Source of the DNA: a virus
DNA length: 22,258 nt
Strand: one strand, 5' to 3'
IMG/VR virus record: IMGVR_UViG_3300044800_000327
Location: 1 to 22,258 of that record
Each line of letters starts with the position of its first letter. The stretch's first letter is position 1. A program made the position numbers and the translations under genes. Below are positions 3,356 to 14,390 of this stretch, piece by piece. The notes under the pieces are model-generated. The model did not search any database and was not told the origin of the DNA. It was given only the letters and a program-made list of their open reading frames with translations.

Positions 3356-3362
3356 TATTTTG

Positions 3363-3433
3363 TTCCCTCACCAAGATTCGGACTTGGACTCTCAGATTCA
3401 AAGTCTGATACGCTACCATTACGTTACAAGGGA
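3363..3433 (-). tRNA. tRNA-Gln (anticodon TTG)
   Basis: The gene folds as a full cloverleaf. The acceptor is TCCCTTG/TGAGGGA with discriminator A. The D arm pairs ACG/CGT and contains AATGGT. The anticodon stem TCAGA/TCTGA closes loop CTTTGAA (anticodon TTG, codon CAA). The T arm is CCAAG-TCCGAAT-CTTGG. The terminal CCA is not encoded. It is the last tRNA of the leftward array. Confidence 0.92.
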
Positions 3434-3482: not shown

Positions 3483-3489
3483 TCTATTG

Positions 3490-3560
3490 CTACCTCATCA
3501 AGACTCGGACTTGAATTTAATGCTTCAGAGGCATTCACACTGCCATTGTGTTATGAGGCA
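3490..3560 (-). tRNA. tRNA-Gln (anticodon CTG)
   Basis: The acceptor is TGCCTCA/TGAGGTA with one G-T pair and discriminator G. The D arm is ACAC-AATGGCA-GTGT. The anticodon stem AATGC/GCATT closes loop CTCTGAA (anticodon CTG, codon CAG). The T arm is TCAAG-TCCGAGT-CTTGA. CCA is not encoded. It is a second glutamine isoacceptor beside the TTG one, with a similar D and T arm, so the pair probably arose by duplication. Confidence 0.9.
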
Positions 3561-3629: not shown

Positions 3630-3699
3630 TATTTTCAAAGAATATTATAATGCTTAGAGGTTTATAAAGGTTTTTTTGCGCACCCCTTGGCGTATTTTG

Positions 3700-3773
3700 G
3701 GTGATTGATGAGTTACGATCTCATTACCTCTTGGTTCACAGCCAAGCACTCTTCCAATTGAGCTACAACCACC
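3700..3773 (-). tRNA. tRNA-His (anticodon GTG) with encoded G-1
   Basis: The acceptor GTGGTTG/CAATCAC carries the extra 5' G (position -1) opposite C73, the hallmark of bacterial tRNA-His. The D arm begins GCTC and ends GAGT. The anticodon stem CTTGG/CCAAG closes loop CTGTGAA (anticodon GTG, codons CAT/CAC). The T arm is ATGAG-ATCGTAA-CTCAT. CCA is not encoded. Confidence 0.93.
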
Positions 3774-3870: not shown

Positions 3871-4554
3871 ATGAAAAACAAGTATTTAAAAGAAAATTTC
3901 GAACCCATAGTAAAAGTTTCAAAAAATATAACTGAAATATTATTAAAATTGGAAATGAATGGTAAGGGAGATACGAGAAAAACAATAAGAAAATACATAA
4001 ATTTATATAATATAGATATTTCACATTTTGAAACACAATTAGATAGGTATAATAGAACATTAAAAAAGAATATTGCATTTCATAAAATTCCAATAAAAAA
4101 TATATTAATATCAAATTCGACATATAGTTGTGTTTCTTTATTGAAAAAAAGATTATATAATGAAGGATTAAAAGAACGTAAATGTGAATTATGCGGACAA
4201 GATGAAAATTGGCGTGGTGAACATATGAGTTTAATTCTTGATCACATAAATGGTATCAATAATGACCATAAAATTGAAAATTTAAGAATTGTATGTCCAA
4301 ATTGTAACGCAACATTACCTACATATTGTAGAGGAATAAAAGGAATAAATAAAAAAGGAACATTAAAAAATAATAAAAATTTTAATCATTATGAACACTC
4401 TGTCTCACAGCGTAAAACGCAACGTCCATCATATGAACAACTTCAAAAAGAAATTAAAGAAAATGGATATTCTGCAACAGGTGGAAAATATGGTGTAAGT
4501 GATAATGCAATAAGAAAATGGATAAAATTTTATGAAAAATTTAATGTCCTTTAA
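3871..4554 (+). CDS. HNH endonuclease, probably a free-standing homing nuclease
   Basis: The product is 227 aa. A zinc-associated HNH core is visible: CELC at 105-108, LILDHINGINNDH with the Asp-His pair at 124-125, then ENLRIVCPNCN with the second Cys pair at 142 and 145. The N-terminal 100 residues are basic and helical. The C-terminus (PSYEQLQKEIKENGYSATGG, then a segment ending NAIRKWIKFYEK) looks like a helix-turn-helix that reads DNA. Genes of this type in phages are usually homing endonucleases that cut nearby sites. It lies on the plus strand within the leftward tRNA array, between the His gene and a degenerate Tyr tRNA, with its own late-type motif. This is consistent with insertion into the array. 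The exact target is unknown. Confidence 0.88.
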   Translation: MKNKYLKENFEPIVKVSKNITEILLKLEMNGKGDTRKTIRKYINLYNIDISHFETQLDRYNRTLKKNIAFHKIPIKNILISNSTYSCVSLLKKRLYNEGLKERKCELCGQDENWRGEHMSLILDHINGINNDHKIENLRIVCPNCNATLPTYCRGIKGINKKGTLKNNKNFNHYEHSVSQRKTQRPSYEQLQKEIKENGYSATGGKYGVSDNAIRKWIKFYEKFNVL

Positions 4555-4562
4555 AATAAGCA

Positions 4563-4642
4563 ATAAATTTTGGGTATTCGATGATAATTCCAAGTTTTCA
4601 TAATCTACAGTTATATGCTTTACCAAATAAGCTACAAATTCC
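4563..4642 (-). pseudogene. Degenerate tRNA-Tyr-like sequence (anticodon GTA)
   Basis: The 5' half is tRNA-like: GAATTTG-TA-GCTT, a D loop ATTTGGTAA, AGC, then anticodon stem TATAA/TTATG around loop CTGTAGA (anticodon GTA, Tyr). The 3' half is not: ATCGAAT resembles a T loop but has no matching stem, and the 3' strand AAAATTT pairs poorly with the acceptor. The long variable arm expected for bacterial Tyr is also not convincing. It is most likely a decayed tRNA in the array beside the HNH gene. Confidence 0.45.
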
Positions 4643-4744: not shown

Positions 4745-4745
4745 T

Positions 4746-4818
4746 TCGAGTAGGAGGGATTCGAACCCCCAAAGTCCTGATTCCAATTCAGGTTGGTTAC
4801 CAATTACCGTACTACTCG
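4746..4818 (-). tRNA. tRNA-Pro (anticodon TGG)
   Basis: The acceptor is CGAGTAG/CTACTCG (7 bp) with discriminator A. The D arm pairs GGT/ACC around AATTGGTA. The anticodon stem CCTGA/TCAGG closes loop ATTGGAA (anticodon TGG, codon CCA). The T arm is GGGGG-TTCGAAT-CCCTC with one G-T pair. CCA is not encoded. It is the first tRNA after the attenuator. Confidence 0.94.
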
Positions 4819-4844
4819 ATAAAAACATTTCAACAAACACCAAT

Positions 4845-4874
4845 AAAAAACCCCACTCGATATGAATGGGGGGT
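4845..4874 (-). terminator. Intrinsic terminator in front of tRNA-Pro (attenuator terminator)
   Basis: In minus-strand RNA, CCCCAUUC (from 4871 to 4864) pairs with GAGUGGGG (from 4858 to 4851) over loop AUAUC: eight pairs with one wobble. It is followed at once by six U (4850-4845). The stem can extend through AAA/UUU using the two upstream C as slack. The U-tract ends 26 nt before the first base of tRNA-Pro, so termination here would silence the whole tRNA array. Confidence 0.8.
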
Positions 4875-4927
4875 TTCTTTAACCTAAAAACTTTTTCTCG
4901 AAAAATTTAAGTATAGTTTCCCCATTC
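4851..4927 (-). promoter_or_regulatory. Attenuator: competing antiterminator and terminator helices
   Basis: Segment 2 (GAATGGGG, 4927-4920) lies in the leader ORF. It is the exact complement of segment 3 (CCCCATTC, 4871-4864), the 5' arm of the terminator. Segment 4 (GAGTGGGG, 4858-4851) differs from segment 2 by one base and competes for segment 3. Pairing 2:3 would prevent 3:4 termination. Segment 2 starts 6 nt after the last of six Pro/Gln/His codons and ends 10 nt before the stop codon. A ribosome stalled on the early codons leaves segment 2 free, while one reaching the stop covers it. A weak upstream helix (TCCA/TGGA) can also sequester the start of segment 2. The pairing is seen in the sequence; the regulatory reading is inference. 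Confidence 0.7.
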
Positions 4928-4978
4928 CAAAATTGGATGCTGTGGTTGCGGAACTATGTTTACTAAATTTTTCATCAT
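4907..4978 (-). CDS. Leader peptide of the tRNA array, 23 aa with a Pro-Gln-Pro-Gln-His-Pro run
   Basis: ATG at 4978 to TAA at 4907 encodes MMKNLVNIVPQPQHP followed by ILEWGNYT. Codons 10-15 are CCG CAA CCA CAG CAT CCA. The four intact tRNAs downstream are Pro(TGG), His(GTG), Gln(CTG) and Gln(TTG), so every codon in the run is read by one of them. The ORF starts about 35 nt after a host-type -7 element and ends 33 nt before the terminator hairpin. Codons 18-20 (GAA TGG GGA) form the antiterminator strand. A second in-frame ATG directly follows the first. There is no Shine-Dalgarno, as elsewhere in this window. The product itself is probably irrelevant, with translation acting as a sensor of charged Pro, Gln and His tRNA. 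It is too short to be judged real from coding statistics alone. Confidence 0.65.
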   Translation of the reverse strand: MMKNLVNIVPQPQHPILEWGNYT

Positions 4979-5012
4979 CTAACAAATAACATTAATTAAA
5001 AAATTTACTCTG

Positions 5013-5043
5013 CAAAGATATACATTAAAATCATAAATACAAA
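5013..5043 (-). promoter_or_regulatory. Host-type promoter of the tRNA array and leader peptide
   Basis: On the minus strand TTTG (5040-5043), exactly 19 nt, then TATCTTTG (5013-5020) match the Bacteroidota TTTG-N19-TAnnTTTG promoter very well. Transcription would start near 5005 and give a short leader before the ATG at 4978. The extended -7 (TATATCTTTGCA) is identical to that of the cREC gene, so both probably belong to the same class used before late transcription. Confidence 0.7.
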
Positions 5044-5079: not shown

Positions 5080-5412
5080 TTATTTATAACCCAATTCTCT
5101 CATTACTTGTTCGACATCTATTCTGACTTGTGTAATAGTAATATTTGATGTTTGTGGTTTATATCCTAACATTGAAAACCATCCTTTAAATGCTGCTGGA
5201 AATTGATCAATGGTTCTTATTCGTTGCAATGTTGGTGCAATCATTTTATATGTTTGATCTGCATATTGCACATCTGGTGATTGAGTCATTGCAGATTGTC
5301 CAGCTATTGTTGTTTGAGCAGCAGTTACTTGTTCATTTAAATTTGAGTTGAAAGTTTTATCAAGCCTAGTTATAATTTCAAAAAGTCTCTCTTTCTCATA
5401 TTTCTTTCTCAT
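5080..5412 (-). CDS. Tagged phage protein of unknown function
   Basis: The product is 110 aa. It starts with KKYEKERLFEIITRLDKTF and has LNE at residues 25-27, so it belongs to the tag family of the operon at 1-1649. The rest (about 80 aa) has a Thr/Gln/Ala-rich linker followed by a small globular part (PTLQRIRTIDQFPAAFKGWF) ending QVMRELGYK. No known domain is recognised. If the tag is removed at LNE, the mature product would be about 83 aa. A GTATTTATA motif ends 11 nt before the ATG. Its stop lies 37 nt upstream of the tRNA promoter, and no terminator separates the two, so late transcription may run into the attenuator. Confidence 0.75.
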   Translation of the reverse strand: MRKKYEKERLFEIITRLDKTFNSNLNEQVTAAQTTIAGQSAMTQSPDVQYADQTYKMIAPTLQRIRTIDQFPAAFKGWFSMLGYKPQTSNITITQVRIDVEQVMRELGYK

Positions 5413-5564: not shown

Positions 5565-6572
5565 ATGAAGATTAAGAATATAATATGTTTATTAACGCTA
5601 CTATTTTTTATTTTTAAAAATGGTTTTAGTCAAGACCCTACGTTTTCTCAGTTTTATGCGAATTCTTTATATCTTGCGCCATCATTTGCTGGAGAGATAG
5701 AAGGAAATAGATTTTCATTAAATTATAGAGATCAGTGGCCCGCTATTTCTAGAGTATATAATACTTATAGTTTTTCTTTTGATAAGTCTTTATCAAATTT
5801 TAATTCTGGAATAGGATTATTAGCTACTTATGATGTTGCAGGATCAGGGAATTTAAGTACTACAAACATAGGTGTTCTTTATTCATATGATTTTAACATA
5901 ACAAAAGAGTGGCATGTGAGACCGGGCGTGGAATTTAAATTTTATTACCTCGGTTTAGATATAAATAAATTAATTTTTAATACTCAAATATCAAACGCTG
6001 GAAATATTCCTGTAATTCTTCCTCCACAATTTAATAACATAGGAGGAATTGATTATACAACATCAATACTTATCTATAATGATAATATATGGGGTGGTTT
6101 TACTTTAGATCATATGTTTAAACCTAAATTATCATTTTATGGAGATAACACTACTGTTCCCATAAAAATTAGTTTATTTGGGGGTTGGCAAATTTATAAA
6201 AGAACAAGATTAAGACAATCAGAACAAGATATAGTTTCTCTTGCTATGATTTTACAAAAACAAGGACAATTTTATCAATCTGATGTAGGCGTATATTACT
6301 ACGTACATCCTTTAGTATTCGGAATATGGTATAGAGGAATTCCATTTTTAAAGGTTTCACATACAACATTACAAGCTGGAGATGCAATAATAGGTTTAGT
6401 CGGAATAAAAACAAAACAATTTAAATTTGGATATAGTTATGATTTTACAATATCTAATTTATATTCTTCAACTAAAGGAGCTCATGAAGTTTCTATGATA
6501 TATGAATTTAATGCGTTACATTTATTAAAAAAATCAGGAAGAATGAAAGCTATGCCATGTCCAGAATTTTAA
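5565..6572 (+). CDS. PorP/SprF family type IX secretion outer-membrane protein
   Basis: The product is 335 aa, a usual length for the family. It has an N-terminal signal peptide (to about residue 22, FKNGFSQ) followed by the family hallmark DPTFSQFYANSLYLAPSFAG and later RFSLNYRDQWPAI. The remainder alternates amphipathic strands with aromatic girdles, as expected for an outer-membrane beta-barrel. PorP/SprF-like proteins act with the T9SS of Bacteroidota. Particular paralogues are dedicated to secretion and surface attachment of substrates with type B sorting domains, the classic pair being SprF with the adhesin SprB. Here the gene is followed 12 nt later by a lipoprotein gene and then by an adhesin with a type B domain, so the three look like a functional set. 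Finding it between phage genes is unusual and implies acquisition from a Bacteroidota host. Confidence 0.9.
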   Translation: MKIKNIICLLTLLFFIFKNGFSQDPTFSQFYANSLYLAPSFAGEIEGNRFSLNYRDQWPAISRVYNTYSFSFDKSLSNFNSGIGLLATYDVAGSGNLSTTNIGVLYSYDFNITKEWHVRPGVEFKFYYLGLDINKLIFNTQISNAGNIPVILPPQFNNIGGIDYTTSILIYNDNIWGGFTLDHMFKPKLSFYGDNTTVPIKISLFGGWQIYKRTRLRQSEQDIVSLAMILQKQGQFYQSDVGVYYYVHPLVFGIWYRGIPFLKVSHTTLQAGDAIIGLVGIKTKQFKFGYSYDFTISNLYSSTKGAHEVSMIYEFNALHLLKKSGRMKAMPCPEF

Positions 6573-6584
6573 AAAATATATAAA

Positions 6585-6860
6585 ATGAAAAAAATATTTA
6601 TAATTTTATGCATATTAATAACAATATGTGGCTGTTATTCAAGGAAGGAATCTTTCTATAGCAGAAAATATCCTACTGAAACTAGAAAAAGCTATCATGA
6701 AAAAAAGGGATTAATGATATTGAGCAATACTTACATGGGAAGAAATGGCGCAATTAATTCTAGACATAATAAACAAACTAAAAGAAAAGCATATAAAAGA
6801 TTTAATAAACTTAATAAACTTAATAAATATCATAGATTTGGAAAATATCCAAATAGATAG
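6585..6860 (+). CDS. Small basic lipoprotein of the PorP/SprF cassette
   Basis: The product is 91 aa. Hydrophobic residues 4-15 lead to a lipobox (TICGC) with the lipidated Cys at 17. The mature part is basic and includes YHEKKGLMILSNTYMGRNGA, then a Lys/Arg/Tyr-rich tail (TKRKAYKRFNKLNKLNKYH). The phrase KGLMILxNTxxGRN recalls small lipoproteins in Bacteroidota genomes, some near gliding or T9SS genes; this is from memory. The gene lies between PorP/SprF and the adhesin with short gaps (12 and 53 nt), so an operon is likely. Function is unknown. It may anchor or assist the PorP-like barrel or the surface adhesin. Confidence 0.75.
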   Translation: MKKIFIILCILITICGCYSRKESFYSRKYPTETRKSYHEKKGLMILSNTYMGRNGAINSRHNKQTKRKAYKRFNKLNKLNKYHRFGKYPNR

Positions 6861-6913
6861 AAAATGCGGTCAGTATATGAAAATGAATATAAAACAAAAT
6901 AAATAATTATTTT

Positions 6914-8419
6914 ATGAAAAGAATTCTTTTCTTTTTAATTTTAGCGTTTTTATCTCTGTCTGTGTTTGGACAGAATTGTTCTATTTTAGCAAAAGCCAAT
7001 AACATCACTCCTGACAAATTATGTTCTCCAGTTAGTGCAGTTTGGAATGTAAGTTATGCTGGTGTTAATGATGCTGGAACAGAAGTAGATATTCAATATG
7101 ATTGGGGTGACGGAACTCCGATACAAACAATCCCTGCTACTAATATAGGTCTTGGAATTTTTGAAACAACAATTACACATGTTTATACATCTGCTGGTAA
7201 TGTCTGTAATTATTATCCACAAGCAACATTAATGGTTAATGGAGTTTTATGCACTTCATCAACTCAAGAACAGATAGTTACAGTATGGGACAATGATGAT
7301 CACAATGGTGGTTATATGCATATTAACCCTACTGTTTATCCAATTTGTGTGGGAAATGGAGCAAATGTCAAATTTCAGGATTTAACTCAATTCAATTGTG
7401 TTCCACCACAAGAAAACGATGTTCCAAATGAATCTACACGATGGGTTCAATGGATTTATGGAACTGACATTACTATGACAGGTATTCCTATAACAGTTAA
7501 TGGTGTATTACATACTTTTCCATTTTCCGGACCAATTATAACACTACTCGGACCCGTTACTGGTTCTGGTGTATATTCAGATATAATTAATGTCGCAAAT
7601 GATAAACTTGTAGGACAATATTTTCAAGTCACTTTGCGTAATTGGAATTATTGTAATCCCTATGATGACCCAAATATTCCCGGATCACCTGTAGATTCTA
7701 TAAACGGTGACCATCCGCCTGTGGTCACTACCGCAATAATATTAATTGTACCCTATCCTGATCCTACTATAACACCAATAGATACACAATGTCTTCAAAA
7801 TCCAGCTATTACGTTAACTGCTCATGATGTTGGTGGAACTTGGTCAGGTGCAGGAGTATCGGGTAATAAATTCTACCCTTCTATAGCAGGTGTAGGAAAT
7901 CATGTTATAACATACAATATTACTGATGGAAATGGATGTAGTGCTTCTGATCAAATAACTGTAACAATAGAACCTATGCCTAATGCTACTATAACACCCA
8001 TAGGAAATATGTGTGTAACAGATATAAAAATCACATTAGTGGCTCATGATACGGGTGGTGTGTGGACAGGTAATGGAGTTATGGGAAATATATTTGATCC
8101 TGCTTTAGCTGGAGTAGGAAATAGCACTATTACATATAACATCACTAATCAATATGGATGTACAAATTCTGATCAAATAACTGTAATAGTTTCATCAACA
8201 CCAAATGCTACTATAATTCCAATAAATAATTTTTGTATGTTAGATACAATTATTACGTTGGTAGCTCATGATGCAGGTGGGATGTGGTCGGGTGACGGTG
8301 TTGTAGCAAATATTTTTAATGCTGAACTTGCTGGAATAGGGGCACACGATATTACATATAAAATCGTTAATGGAAATTGTAGTGATTCTGATACTAAATT
8401 TATAACTATTTTTCCATAA
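6914..8419 (+). CDS. T9SS surface adhesin, N-terminal part (frame interrupted by an in-frame TAA)
   Basis: The product is 501 aa to the TAA at 8417. It has a signal peptide (MKRILFFLILAFLSLSVFG, cleaved before Gln20). An N-terminal PKD-like domain follows (IQYDWGDGTPIQ and a TTITHVYTSAG motif at about 60-100) and then a Cys-containing region. From 7751 on come tandem repeats of about 74 aa of the form PNATITPI, then C, then AHDxGGxWxGxGV, NxFxPxxAGVGxHxITY and GCxxSDxI. Three repeats precede the stop. After the stop the same frame continues with the fourth repeat, and the sorting domain only appears at 10333, so this piece alone would be secreted but could not be attached by the T9SS. The stop falls in the repeat junction, where the other copies read SxPNATI, FPIPNATI or ATPNATI. 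Confidence 0.85.
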   Translation: MKRILFFLILAFLSLSVFGQNCSILAKANNITPDKLCSPVSAVWNVSYAGVNDAGTEVDIQYDWGDGTPIQTIPATNIGLGIFETTITHVYTSAGNVCNYYPQATLMVNGVLCTSSTQEQIVTVWDNDDHNGGYMHINPTVYPICVGNGANVKFQDLTQFNCVPPQENDVPNESTRWVQWIYGTDITMTGIPITVNGVLHTFPFSGPIITLLGPVTGSGVYSDIINVANDKLVGQYFQVTLRNWNYCNPYDDPNIPGSPVDSINGDHPPVVTTAIILIVPYPDPTITPIDTQCLQNPAITLTAHDVGGTWSGAGVSGNKFYPSIAGVGNHVITYNITDGNGCSASDQITVTIEPMPNATITPIGNMCVTDIKITLVAHDTGGVWTGNGVMGNIFDPALAGVGNSTITYNITNQYGCTNSDQITVIVSSTPNATIIPINNFCMLDTIITLVAHDAGGMWSGDGVVANIFNAELAGIGAHDITYKIVNGNCSDSDTKFITIFP

Positions 8420-9526
8420 CCTAATGCAACTATTAATCCTATAGGTGTTTTATGTACTGAAAGTCCTGTAGTTATTTTATCTGCTCATGATGATATGGGT
8501 GGTACATGGACTGGAGATGGTGTTATAGGAAATGTGTTTAATCCTTTAATTGCTGGTGTAGGAAATCATATTATAACATATAATATTACAAATTCTAGCG
8601 GATGTAATTCTTTTGATCAGATAATTATAGTTGTGCAAGCTACTCCAAATGCAACCATAACTCCAATAAATAATTTATGTATGAATAATATTAAAATTCC
8701 CTTAATAGTTCATGATACAGGTGGTGTGTGGAGAGGAGATGGTGTTATAGGAAATAATTTTAATCCTTTAATTGCTGGTGTAGGAACTCATATTATTAAA
8801 TATAAAATAGTAAATGCAAATTGTAGTGATTCTGATCAAATATCAGTAACAGTTTTTCCCATTCCTAATGCAACAATAACTCCAGTAAATTCTTTATGTA
8901 CTGATGATCCTAAAGTAACATTAACTGCAGTAGATATTGGAGGAACTTGGACAGGAGATGGAATTACTGGAAACATTTTTGATCCAGCAATTGCGGGTGT
9001 GGGAAATCATATCATTCGATATAATGTTACAAATTCTAGCGGATGTCAAGATTCAGATCATATAGTTATAAAGGTATTAGCGAGTCCTAACGCAACTATT
9101 GTTCCTGTTGATACCTTATGTGTAAATCATCCACCAGTAACATTAACGGTAGTAGATAATAGTGGTATATGGTCTGGAGCTGCTACAAATAATATTTTTG
9201 ATCCTTCAAAAATAGGTGTAGGAAATCATATAGTTAAATATCGTGTAACTAATGCTAATGGTTGTAGTGATAGTGATCAAATAGTTGTTACCATTATGCC
9301 TATTCCTATAGTTAAAATAGGTCATGTTGGAACTGTTTTTATAGGCGACCCACCCTTTGTGTTAAATGCAATACCTACAGGGGGAACATTTTCTGGAATT
9401 GCTGTAACTGGAAATATGTTTGATCCAAATGCAGCAGGTTTAGGAGTTCATGTAGTCGGATATCAGAGTGCTATAGATAAATTTGGATGTTCAGCATCTG
9501 ATACTATTCATATTAAAGTGATAATG
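7751..9526 (+). repeat. Eight tandem repeats of about 74 codons in the adhesin
   Basis: Eight protein repeats span 592 codons. Each begins near PNATITPI and contains a Cys near residue 14 (lost in the last repeat), GGxWxGxGVxGNxFxP, AGVGxHxITYxITN and GCxxSDxI. The eighth is the most divergent. DNA identity between copies is only partial, so the array is old or selected for diversity. This is a repeat type seen in gliding or adhesion proteins of Bacteroidota. Confidence 0.85.
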
Positions 9527-10333
9527 CCATTACTTCCTACAGCTAATTTTCAACCAGATACTACAGGGTGTGCTCCTTTAACCGTAAAATTTCGTAATTA
9601 TAGCAATAATGGTACAACTTGTTTATGGGATTTTGGAGATGGTGTGCTTTCTACTGAAACAAATCCAACACATACATATTATACGGTTGGTAATTATATT
9701 GTAAAATTAATTGAAACTAATATCACGGGAGAATCTATTTTCAATGGTTCTGTTATAGTTTATCAAAATCCTATTGCAATTTTTACTATATATCCTCCAG
9801 AAATAACGAACAATTCTCAAATCGTTGTATTTACTAATTATTCACAATATAATACCACCAATTTATGGGATTTTGGCGATGAAATTATTTCAATAGAAGA
9901 AAGTCCGTGGCATAAGTATTTAGCAGAAGGAACTTATACAGTAACGTTAATAATCAGTTCGTCAGAAGGATGTATAGATTCAACAAAATTAACCACTCCA
10001 ATTAAAGTAAGATTTATTGTTGGAAAAATAGTATTTCCAAATGCATTTCGTTGGAATCAATCGGGTCAAACAGGAGGATATTGGACAGAAGAAGGTGTGG
10101 TTGACGATTATATTTTTAGACCTCATTTTGAGAATGTATTAGAATATCATTTACAAATATTTAACAGATGGGGAGTTTTAATATATGAAAGTCATAACTT
10201 ATATAAAGGATGGGACGGTTATTTTGCTAATGGAAGTTTAGCTATTCAAGGAGTATATATCTGGAAAGCAACAGGAAGATTTACAGATGGAAGATATTTT
10301 GATATTGTAGGCGATGTAACTTTTTTACATTAA
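8495..10333 (+). CDS. T9SS surface adhesin, C-terminal part with type B sorting domain
   Basis: This continues the frame of 6914-8419. The frame is open from 8420, and the first ATG is at 8495 inside a repeat, so it is not a natural start. From 8420 it covers repeats 4-8, then two PKD domains (CLWDFGDGVLSTETNPTHTY and NLWDFGDEIISIEESPWHKY), then a C-terminal type B T9SS sorting domain (gliding-motility, CHU_C-like): FPNAFRWN, YHLQIFNRWGVLIYES, GWDGYFANG, IQGVYIWKA and the ending VGDVTFLH. Such domains direct substrates through the T9SS with a SprF-like partner, here the PorP/SprF gene at 5565. Without readthrough or repair of the TAA, this half has no signal peptide. With both halves joined, the protein would be about 1139 aa. 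The open frame, intact domains and absence of other lesions suggest a recent mutation or a recoding event. Confidence 0.85.
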   Translation: MGGTWTGDGVIGNVFNPLIAGVGNHIITYNITNSSGCNSFDQIIIVVQATPNATITPINNLCMNNIKIPLIVHDTGGVWRGDGVIGNNFNPLIAGVGTHIIKYKIVNANCSDSDQISVTVFPIPNATITPVNSLCTDDPKVTLTAVDIGGTWTGDGITGNIFDPAIAGVGNHIIRYNVTNSSGCQDSDHIVIKVLASPNATIVPVDTLCVNHPPVTLTVVDNSGIWSGAATNNIFDPSKIGVGNHIVKYRVTNANGCSDSDQIVVTIMPIPIVKIGHVGTVFIGDPPFVLNAIPTGGTFSGIAVTGNMFDPNAAGLGVHVVGYQSAIDKFGCSASDTIHIKVIMPLLPTANFQPDTTGCAPLTVKFRNYSNNGTTCLWDFGDGVLSTETNPTHTYYTVGNYIVKLIETNITGESIFNGSVIVYQNPIAIFTIYPPEITNNSQIVVFTNYSQYNTTNLWDFGDEIISIEESPWHKYLAEGTYTVTLIISSSEGCIDSTKLTTPIKVRFIVGKIVFPNAFRWNQSGQTGGYWTEEGVVDDYIFRPHFENVLEYHLQIFNRWGVLIYESHNLYKGWDGYFANGSLAIQGVYIWKATGRFTDGRYFDIVGDVTFLH

Positions 10334-13961: not shown

Positions 13962-14390
13962 ATGGCAATTTCTGAAAACGATAAACAAAAATTGTTTATA
14001 TTAATGGCAAAATTAAACCCGACTTTTAAACAAAGACAAGTGGTTTTAAATGAAGATGAAGATAAATGGATTCAAAAAGCAGTTAATCCAGAGCATAAAG
14101 GTTTTTGTACACCCTTAAATAAGCCAACCTGTACGCCAGCACGTAAAGCATTGGCTAAGAGATTTAAAAAGGGTATTGATGAAGAATATACTGAATCTAC
14201 TCCTGAAGAATTAAAAAATATGGCAGAAAAAATTAAAATAGCTGTTGATGATTTAGTTAATAATAATGATGAATTTGGAATATTAAGAACATTATATAGA
14301 TTGCTTGTTGAAAGAAAAAAAGCAAGTGGAATTCCTCAACCTGCAATAACTTCAGAAGTGGCAGAAGTAAAAGAGCCAAAAATATCTTAA
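13962..14390 (+). CDS. Tagged phage protein with a basic GFCTPLNKPTCTPARKALAK module
   Basis: The product is 142 aa. The N-terminus AISENDKQKLFILMAKLNPTF with LNE at 29-31 is a divergent copy of the shared tag. Right after it comes KWIQKAVNPEHKGFCTPL, then NKPTCTPARKALAKRFKKG, a compact Cys/Pro/basic module that I recall in assorted phage and large-virus proteins. It may bind nucleic acid or zinc. The C-terminal half is helical (EELKNMAEKIKIAVDDL) and ends in an acidic tail. It is followed 9 nt later by the nucleotidyltransferase gene, suggesting one operon. If cut at LNE, the basic module would be the new N-terminus of the mature protein. Confidence 0.8.
   Translation: MAISENDKQKLFILMAKLNPTFKQRQVVLNEDEDKWIQKAVNPEHKGFCTPLNKPTCTPARKALAKRFKKGIDEEYTESTPEELKNMAEKIKIAVDDLVNNNDEFGILRTLYRLLVERKKASGIPQPAITSEVAEVKEPKIS

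Follow-up and report, generated by a model that had tools for sequence, protein, structure and literature searches.

Very large bacterial viruses appear to place tRNA clusters behind leader peptides spelled in the amino acids of those tRNAs

Organization of the leader and tRNA array

The window, by which we mean the whole stretch of DNA analysed, is a 22-kb viral fragment from IMG/VR (22,258 nt) that encodes a T4-type terminase, a PorP/SprF protein and a type IX secretion signal domain. Together with a promoter of the Bacteroidota type, for which the consensus TAnnTTTG or TTTG has been quoted (PMC7366714), this gene content points to a phage of Bacteroidota. On the minus strand the window carries a tRNA array preceded by the following elements, listed in the direction of transcription.

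5013–5043 (−), Bacteroidota-type promoter TTTG-N19-TATCTTTG, with TTTG at 5043–5040 and TATCTTTG at 5020–5013
4907–4978 (−), leader ORF of 23 codons, MMKNLVNIVPQPQHPILEWGNYT, one of 16 distinct homologous class A peptides
4950–4957 (−), segment 1, ATAGTTCC, which in the predicted fold pairs with GGAAACTAT (4921–4913) when untranslated
4934–4951 (−), sensor codons CCG CAA CCA CAG CAT CCA (Pro-Gln-Pro-Gln-His-Pro), cognate to the downstream tRNAs
4920–4927 (−), segment 2, GAATGGGG, 5′ half of the antiterminator, kept in relatives
4864–4871 (−), segment 3, CCCCATTC, 5′ arm of the terminator and 3′ half of the antiterminator
4851–4858 (−), segment 4, GAGTGGGG, 3′ arm of the terminator
4845–4850 (−), terminator T-run, T6
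4745–4819 (−), tRNA-Pro(TGG), ARAGORN
3699–3772 (−), tRNA-His(GTG), ARAGORN
3489–3560 (−), tRNA-Gln(CTG), ARAGORN
3362–3433 (−), tRNA-Gln(TTG), ARAGORN

The short leader ORF thus sits between a promoter and an intrinsic terminator, and its regulatory codons are cognate to what the operon supplies. Promoter, ORF with its Pro-Gln-Pro-Gln-His-Pro run, terminator and the four tRNA genes are all as the initial annotation had described them, and its further claim of two helices that exclude each other holds as well: GAATGGGG within the ORF is exactly complementary to the terminator 5′ arm, a complement of equal or greater length arose in only 1 of 1000 dinucleotide shuffles of the leader ORF, and the antiterminator (2:3) and the terminator (3:4, with the loop ATATC between CCCCATTC and GAGTGGGG) are mutually exclusive in silico. 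To these elements we add segment 1, which was absent from that description and whose predicted pairing, with the arms, gives a complete 1:2 / 2:3 / 3:4 geometry.

Between tRNA-Pro and tRNA-His lie two elements missed initially, an antisense HNH endonuclease gene (3871–4554, +) and a degenerate tRNA-like sequence (4565–4641, −) that scores 29.5 bits, the Rfam threshold, and is not called by ARAGORN. DNA resembling the HNH region also occurs inside other tRNA arrays of relatives (locus L007, 11821–12220; locus L013, 15430–15806), a distribution to be expected if a homing endonuclease moves from one tRNA gene to another. Another TTTG-N-TATCTTTG promoter (3355–3324, −) stands just upstream of the cREC_REC-domain gene that follows the array.

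Elsewhere in the window, the phage genes at 5565–10333 (+) encode a membrane protein of type IX secretion, PorP/SprF (E = 8.5e-51), together with a protein that has PKD repeats and a type IX secretion signal of the CHU_C kind; it is unusual for a phage to carry type IX secretion parts of its own. An N-terminal motif like KYDKQRLFEVLGKLDPTFKP is common to several otherwise dissimilar proteins (822–1175, 1206–1649 and 5080–5412, −; 13962–14390, +) and is perhaps a targeting or capsid-packaging tag; two of these proteins searched against Pfam gave no match.

Class A leaders in related phages

Relatives were fetched with neighbouring proteins as probes, leaving the leader itself out of the search. 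All five distinct types that cover the place (L007, L008, L010, L011 and L012/L013, the last with one near-identical copy) have a leader with a Pro/Gln/His run, pairing arms and a terminator before Pro/His/Gln tRNAs, as the initial annotation had anticipated for related phages. Their peptides are MMKNLVNIVPQPQHPQKLEWGNYA, MRNLRNIQPQPQQHPQNVEWGSYA, MKNLMNIQPQQHPQIDEWGNYV, MMKNFLHIQPQPQHPQDAEWERYA and MKRLTNIQPQPQQHPQMSEWGSYA. Two other probes were of no use: the exact codon run, searched as DNA, gave two unrelated chance matches, and the PorP-like protein found no relatives.

A 21-nt leader pattern recovered a real leader followed by a terminator at 22 of 22 viral loci, whereas its 17 matches in bacterial and archaeal genomes (257 billion bases) all lacked such a peptide, a terminator and a tRNA. 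In the one bacterial genome considered as a source of cellular tRNA operons for comparison, the tRNA clusters are highly repeated. Across the 16 class A peptides known in total, segments 2 and 3 pair entirely by Watson-Crick pairs in 15 leaders and over 7 bp in the remaining one, while the terminator contains at least one G-U pair in every case. Joint changes in the pairing arms, which had been proposed as a check, are indeed seen between leader classes, where the arms covary.

Candidate leaders at other tRNA arrays

The initial annotation proposed a single attenuator. We find support for that attenuator, but it does not stand alone: the arrangement is a general one, with one leader per array. 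An Asp/Glu/Val/Leu/Ala/Trp array lies downstream of the leader MKRLFDILVAVLMVDVLLWAAEEDKLCTVG and its relatives (run VLLWAAEED), a Tyr/Lys array downstream of MRTFGKYYYGKKSYKKQFIRIG... (run YYYGKKSYKK), and a Thr/Cys/Ile/Ser/Phe/Gly/Asn/Arg array downstream of MKTYRNISSISTSTTSRNGNGIFCSDFTGRN...; one 349-kb contig has four leader classes, each before one of its four arrays. Through their tRNA and HNH regions we also matched records of 630 kb, a size that places them in the Mahaphage clade; the hosts predicted for this clade in its original description are Bacteroidetes (PMC7162821). Six arrays in these records have leaders of matching composition, as follows.

Leu/Ser/Cys array, leader MKAMILSLCLSLSLSL... 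(ILSLCLSLSLSL run)
Asp/Tyr/Gln/Lys array, leader ..AKQDKQYQPQYD..
Glu/Ala/Ile/Val/Gly array, leader ..IAIVEIAVIGGAEEGV..
Arg/Ser array, leader ..SSSRSSS..
Pro/Asp/Gln array, leader ..PQPQDQDP..
His/Phe/Trp/Lys array, leader ..HKNFSKSHKWF..

Each leader reads from two to nine amino acids, matching its array, and the composition follows the tRNAs when these are rearranged: tRNA-Tyr is grouped with Glu in two Mahaphage-clade phages and with Asp/Gln/Lys in a third, and the leader tyrosines move along with it. Internal leaders are cognate only to the tRNAs still downstream, so that one array shows the series DYQK, KQY and K, and another passes from PDQ to Q7, seven glutamines before four tRNA-Gln genes. 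Lone tRNAs differ in this respect, as no leader was seen at the lone Met/Arg tRNAs checked and no cognate leader at five loci (L074, L075, L076 of G006, L082 and L102) with lone tRNAs of the Met, His or suppressor type (CTA anticodon). Judged from these sequences, a putative cognate leader device stands before the majority of tRNA arrays in this phage group and in the huge phages of the Mahaphage clade; some other jumbo phages have it too.

Leader codons match the tRNA content of their arrays

We scored each leader by the fraction of its residues whose tRNA is encoded in its array and permuted the pairing of leaders and arrays within each genome. The true pairing ranked top of all permutations in six of six genomes (1/720, 1/120, 1/120, 1/24, 1/6 and 1/6). 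A wider scan searched the 800 nt upstream of each tRNA site for its best ATG ORF and compared this ORF with 4000 random windows from the same phage, giving p ≤ 0.001 at 28 of 162 tRNA sites (14 phages); in the swapped-set control, where disjoint tRNA sets of the same genome were exchanged, 11 of 734 tests did so, some of which may overlap a neighbouring leader. Many of the leaders are related, so these tests are not all independent. Counting wobble, an anticodon of the array can read 375 of the 395 cognate sensor codons. The suggestion that the codon run covaries with tRNA content is therefore borne out across many arrays, by both the permutation and the random-window tests.

Several candidates at p ≤ 0.001 come from phages outside these groups: GMHPVCGMVHMFPCGGGRPM in Lak-A1, EIIAIERNVFVRAEAAMFWYPI in Agrobacterium phage Atu_ph07, QYQLQQLPLVLYPY and others in Salicola phage SCTP-2, and RNNVRQIRVRQ and one more in CcrColossus; a 735-kb Mahaphage also gave a match. 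Clear antiterminators are present in Atu_ph07 and SCTP-2, while of the CcrColossus leaders one was found without a terminator and the other lacks agreement between switch and sensor. In the cultured Bacillus phage G the candidate is the annotated gp86 (MMKCSWFEFDTDFTDVFYCEYTFYSLYTF..., 58381–58515; L083 2382–2516), which precedes a Cys/Asp/Phe/Tyr/Glu/Thr/Ser/Trp array and, although annotated as a hypothetical protein, is probably the leader peptide of that array, with a modelled switch that is not clean. No convincing leader was seen in scans of T5, KVP40, Listeria A511 and S-CBWM1, of which KVP40, S-CBWM1 and the main array of T5 lie outside the reach of the test because these arrays hold nearly every isotype; PTm1 has no tRNAs.

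A predicted RNA switch at the end of the codon run

Exact k-mer complementarity proved too strict for some leaders (L059, L064, L056), and we therefore used partition-function folding. Since the equilibrium between 2:3 and 3:4 fails to separate on from off in many leaders, as it does in hisL and trpL, we modelled the state before segment 4 is made: the ribosome was set on each codon in turn, and the RNA downstream of it was folded through segment 3. For the window leader, the antiterminator has a probability of 1.0 with A-site codons up to His14, 0.5 at Pro15 and 0.1 at Ile16, which places the modelled switch where the cognate run ends; in E. coli hisL the same model gives a drop in antiterminator at the last His codon. 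In silico, and with hisL as the control, stalling on the regulatory codons leaves segment 2 free and passing them blocks it.

The agreement extends to the other leaders. When the switch codon is computed from the RNA and nothing else, it falls no more than two codons away from the last cognate codon in 37 of 43 leaders, as against a mean of 11.4 and a maximum of 21 in 10,000 shuffled pairings of switch and sensor. Of the residues in the eight codons that precede the switch, 79% are cognate, compared with 21% beyond it. A switch at the end of the regulatory run corresponds to the ‘control region’ concept of Elf and Ehrenberg (PMC1183508). Without a ribosome, the window leader is predicted to form the 1:2 hairpin, with P(anti) = 0.1, and many other leaders have P(anti) near 1. 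Adding segment 4 makes the terminator the preferred equilibrium fold of many leaders, that of the window included, at almost all ribosome positions, and we therefore assume that the on/off decision must be kinetic; hisL and trpL are likewise terminator-favoured at equilibrium, so the objection is not specific to the phage leaders. The comparison of terminator and antiterminator folding that had been suggested as a check thus gives a switch at the last cognate codon before segment 4 is made and a favoured terminator afterwards.

Discussion

Codon runs that track the tRNAs, arms that covary, conservation in relatives and a modelled switch at the last cognate codon all support the reading of the initial annotation, and we consider it very likely that the locus is a ribosome-mediated transcription attenuator of the his/trp type that regulates tRNA genes. 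RNA polymerase would start near 5006 and a ribosome would translate the leader peptide. Were tRNA-Pro, tRNA-Gln or tRNA-His scarce for codons 10–15, the ribosome would stall and block segment 1, so that GAATGGGG (2) could pair with CCCCATTC (3) while GAGTGGGG (4) had yet to be made; with 2:3 formed there would be no terminator, and the tRNA-Pro/His/Gln array would be transcribed. With enough tRNA, the ribosome would pass the run and cover segment 2, so that 3:4 forms and transcription ends at 4845. Tight coupling of transcription and translation in Bacteroidota is uncertain.

What such an attenuator senses can be read in two ways. The signal could be amino-acid starvation, acting through low charging of host and phage tRNAs alike; known his/trp attenuators do sense it (PMC1183508) and a ribosome stalls for want of charged tRNA irrespective of the reason, but operons that encode tRNAs would not relieve a lack of amino acids, and we regard this version as rather unlikely. 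As the natural signal we favour a shortage of tRNA over one of amino acids, because the product of the operon is tRNA and because one leader can combine as many as nine unrelated amino acids whose sole common feature is that their tRNA genes lie in one array. We put forward, tentatively and at somewhat less than even chances, that jumbo phages of several bacterial phyla run a codon-resolved surveillance of the tRNA pool: every leader would probe just those tRNAs that its own array is able to replace, and the loss of one of them, to a host anticodon nuclease or host tRNA decay for instance, would trigger its replacement. That the leaders sense anticodon nucleases is an attractive conjecture. 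Phage tRNAs are reported to evade host anticodon nucleases, which is a proposed reason why phages carry them (PMC10264068); that study is concerned with tRNA sequences, whereas the leaders concern the regulation of the same kind of product.

Readings that dispense with a cis-acting sensor fare much worse. The leader peptides could be small proteins that act in trans, in keeping with their similar N- and C-termini within classes and with the precedent of leader peptides such as peTrpL that act in trans (PMC7298713), yet their composition tracks the tRNA array in cis even at internal leaders and the codon run stops where the RNA switch lies, and we hold this to be very improbable. We reject, as scarcely credible, a terminator that merely ends the upstream 110-aa gene next to an incidental ORF: that gene does end just upstream (5080) and intrinsic terminators are common, but the promoter stands between gene and ORF, the ORF is conserved as a peptide, the arms pair beyond what shuffles give and the composition follows the tRNAs. 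Low-complexity coincidence or scanning bias, conceivable since AT-rich DNA abounds in short ORFs and many of them were screened, has a negligible chance of being right and is contradicted by the within-genome permutation, random-window and swapped-set controls, by the independent boundary test and by the contrast between viral (22/22) and bacterial (0/17) pattern matches.

The phage leaders share with E. coli hisL and trpL a short ORF with a regulatory codon run, exclusive 2:3 and 3:4 helices, an intrinsic terminator and a last antiterminator-permitting codon that closes the regulatory run. They differ in that they occur in phages, in that hisL and trpL control biosynthetic enzymes whereas the phage leaders would control tRNA genes, in that one leader reads two to nine different amino acids that match its array, and in the nested internal attenuators that would re-sample the remaining tRNAs. 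T-box riboswitches also read tRNA status and control transcription termination, but there the RNA binds uncharged tRNA directly, whereas in the phage leaders the translated ORF would be the sensor; we rejected a T-box, as Rfam gives no match to a Stem I or specifier domain, and no Rfam family covers the leader. In ErmBL, MsrD and the TopAI uORF, a ribosome stalled in a short uORF likewise alters RNA folding, but these sense drugs that act on the ribosome, whereas the codons of the phage leaders match downstream tRNAs. In the open-access literature, to which our search was confined, we found no description of phage tRNA arrays under the control of leader peptides; the initial annotation likewise knew of none. 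Ribosome-mediated attenuation is a known kind of regulation; the target, the proposed signal, the multi-amino-acid design, the nesting and the phage distribution are new.

The reasons for which phages carry tRNAs, and the means by which those tRNAs are controlled, have been open questions for decades. A cognate attenuator for each array would imply that tRNA supply is measured by the phage in the course of infection and that its response is specific to each isotype, and the leaders bear on the choice between codon compensation and defence against anticodon nucleases because each is a ready-made reporter of the tRNAs that the phage treats as critical. Leader control can be tested at once in cultured phages, for example Bacillus phage G. 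Attenuation would hereby be extended from enzymes of amino-acid metabolism to adaptor RNAs, with multi-amino-acid and nested sensors, and the tRNA-cluster leaders would constitute a self-correcting supply system for translation that is new to description. If the surveillance reading is true, they would amount to a feedback counter-defence for which RNA, the ribosome and a short ORF suffice.
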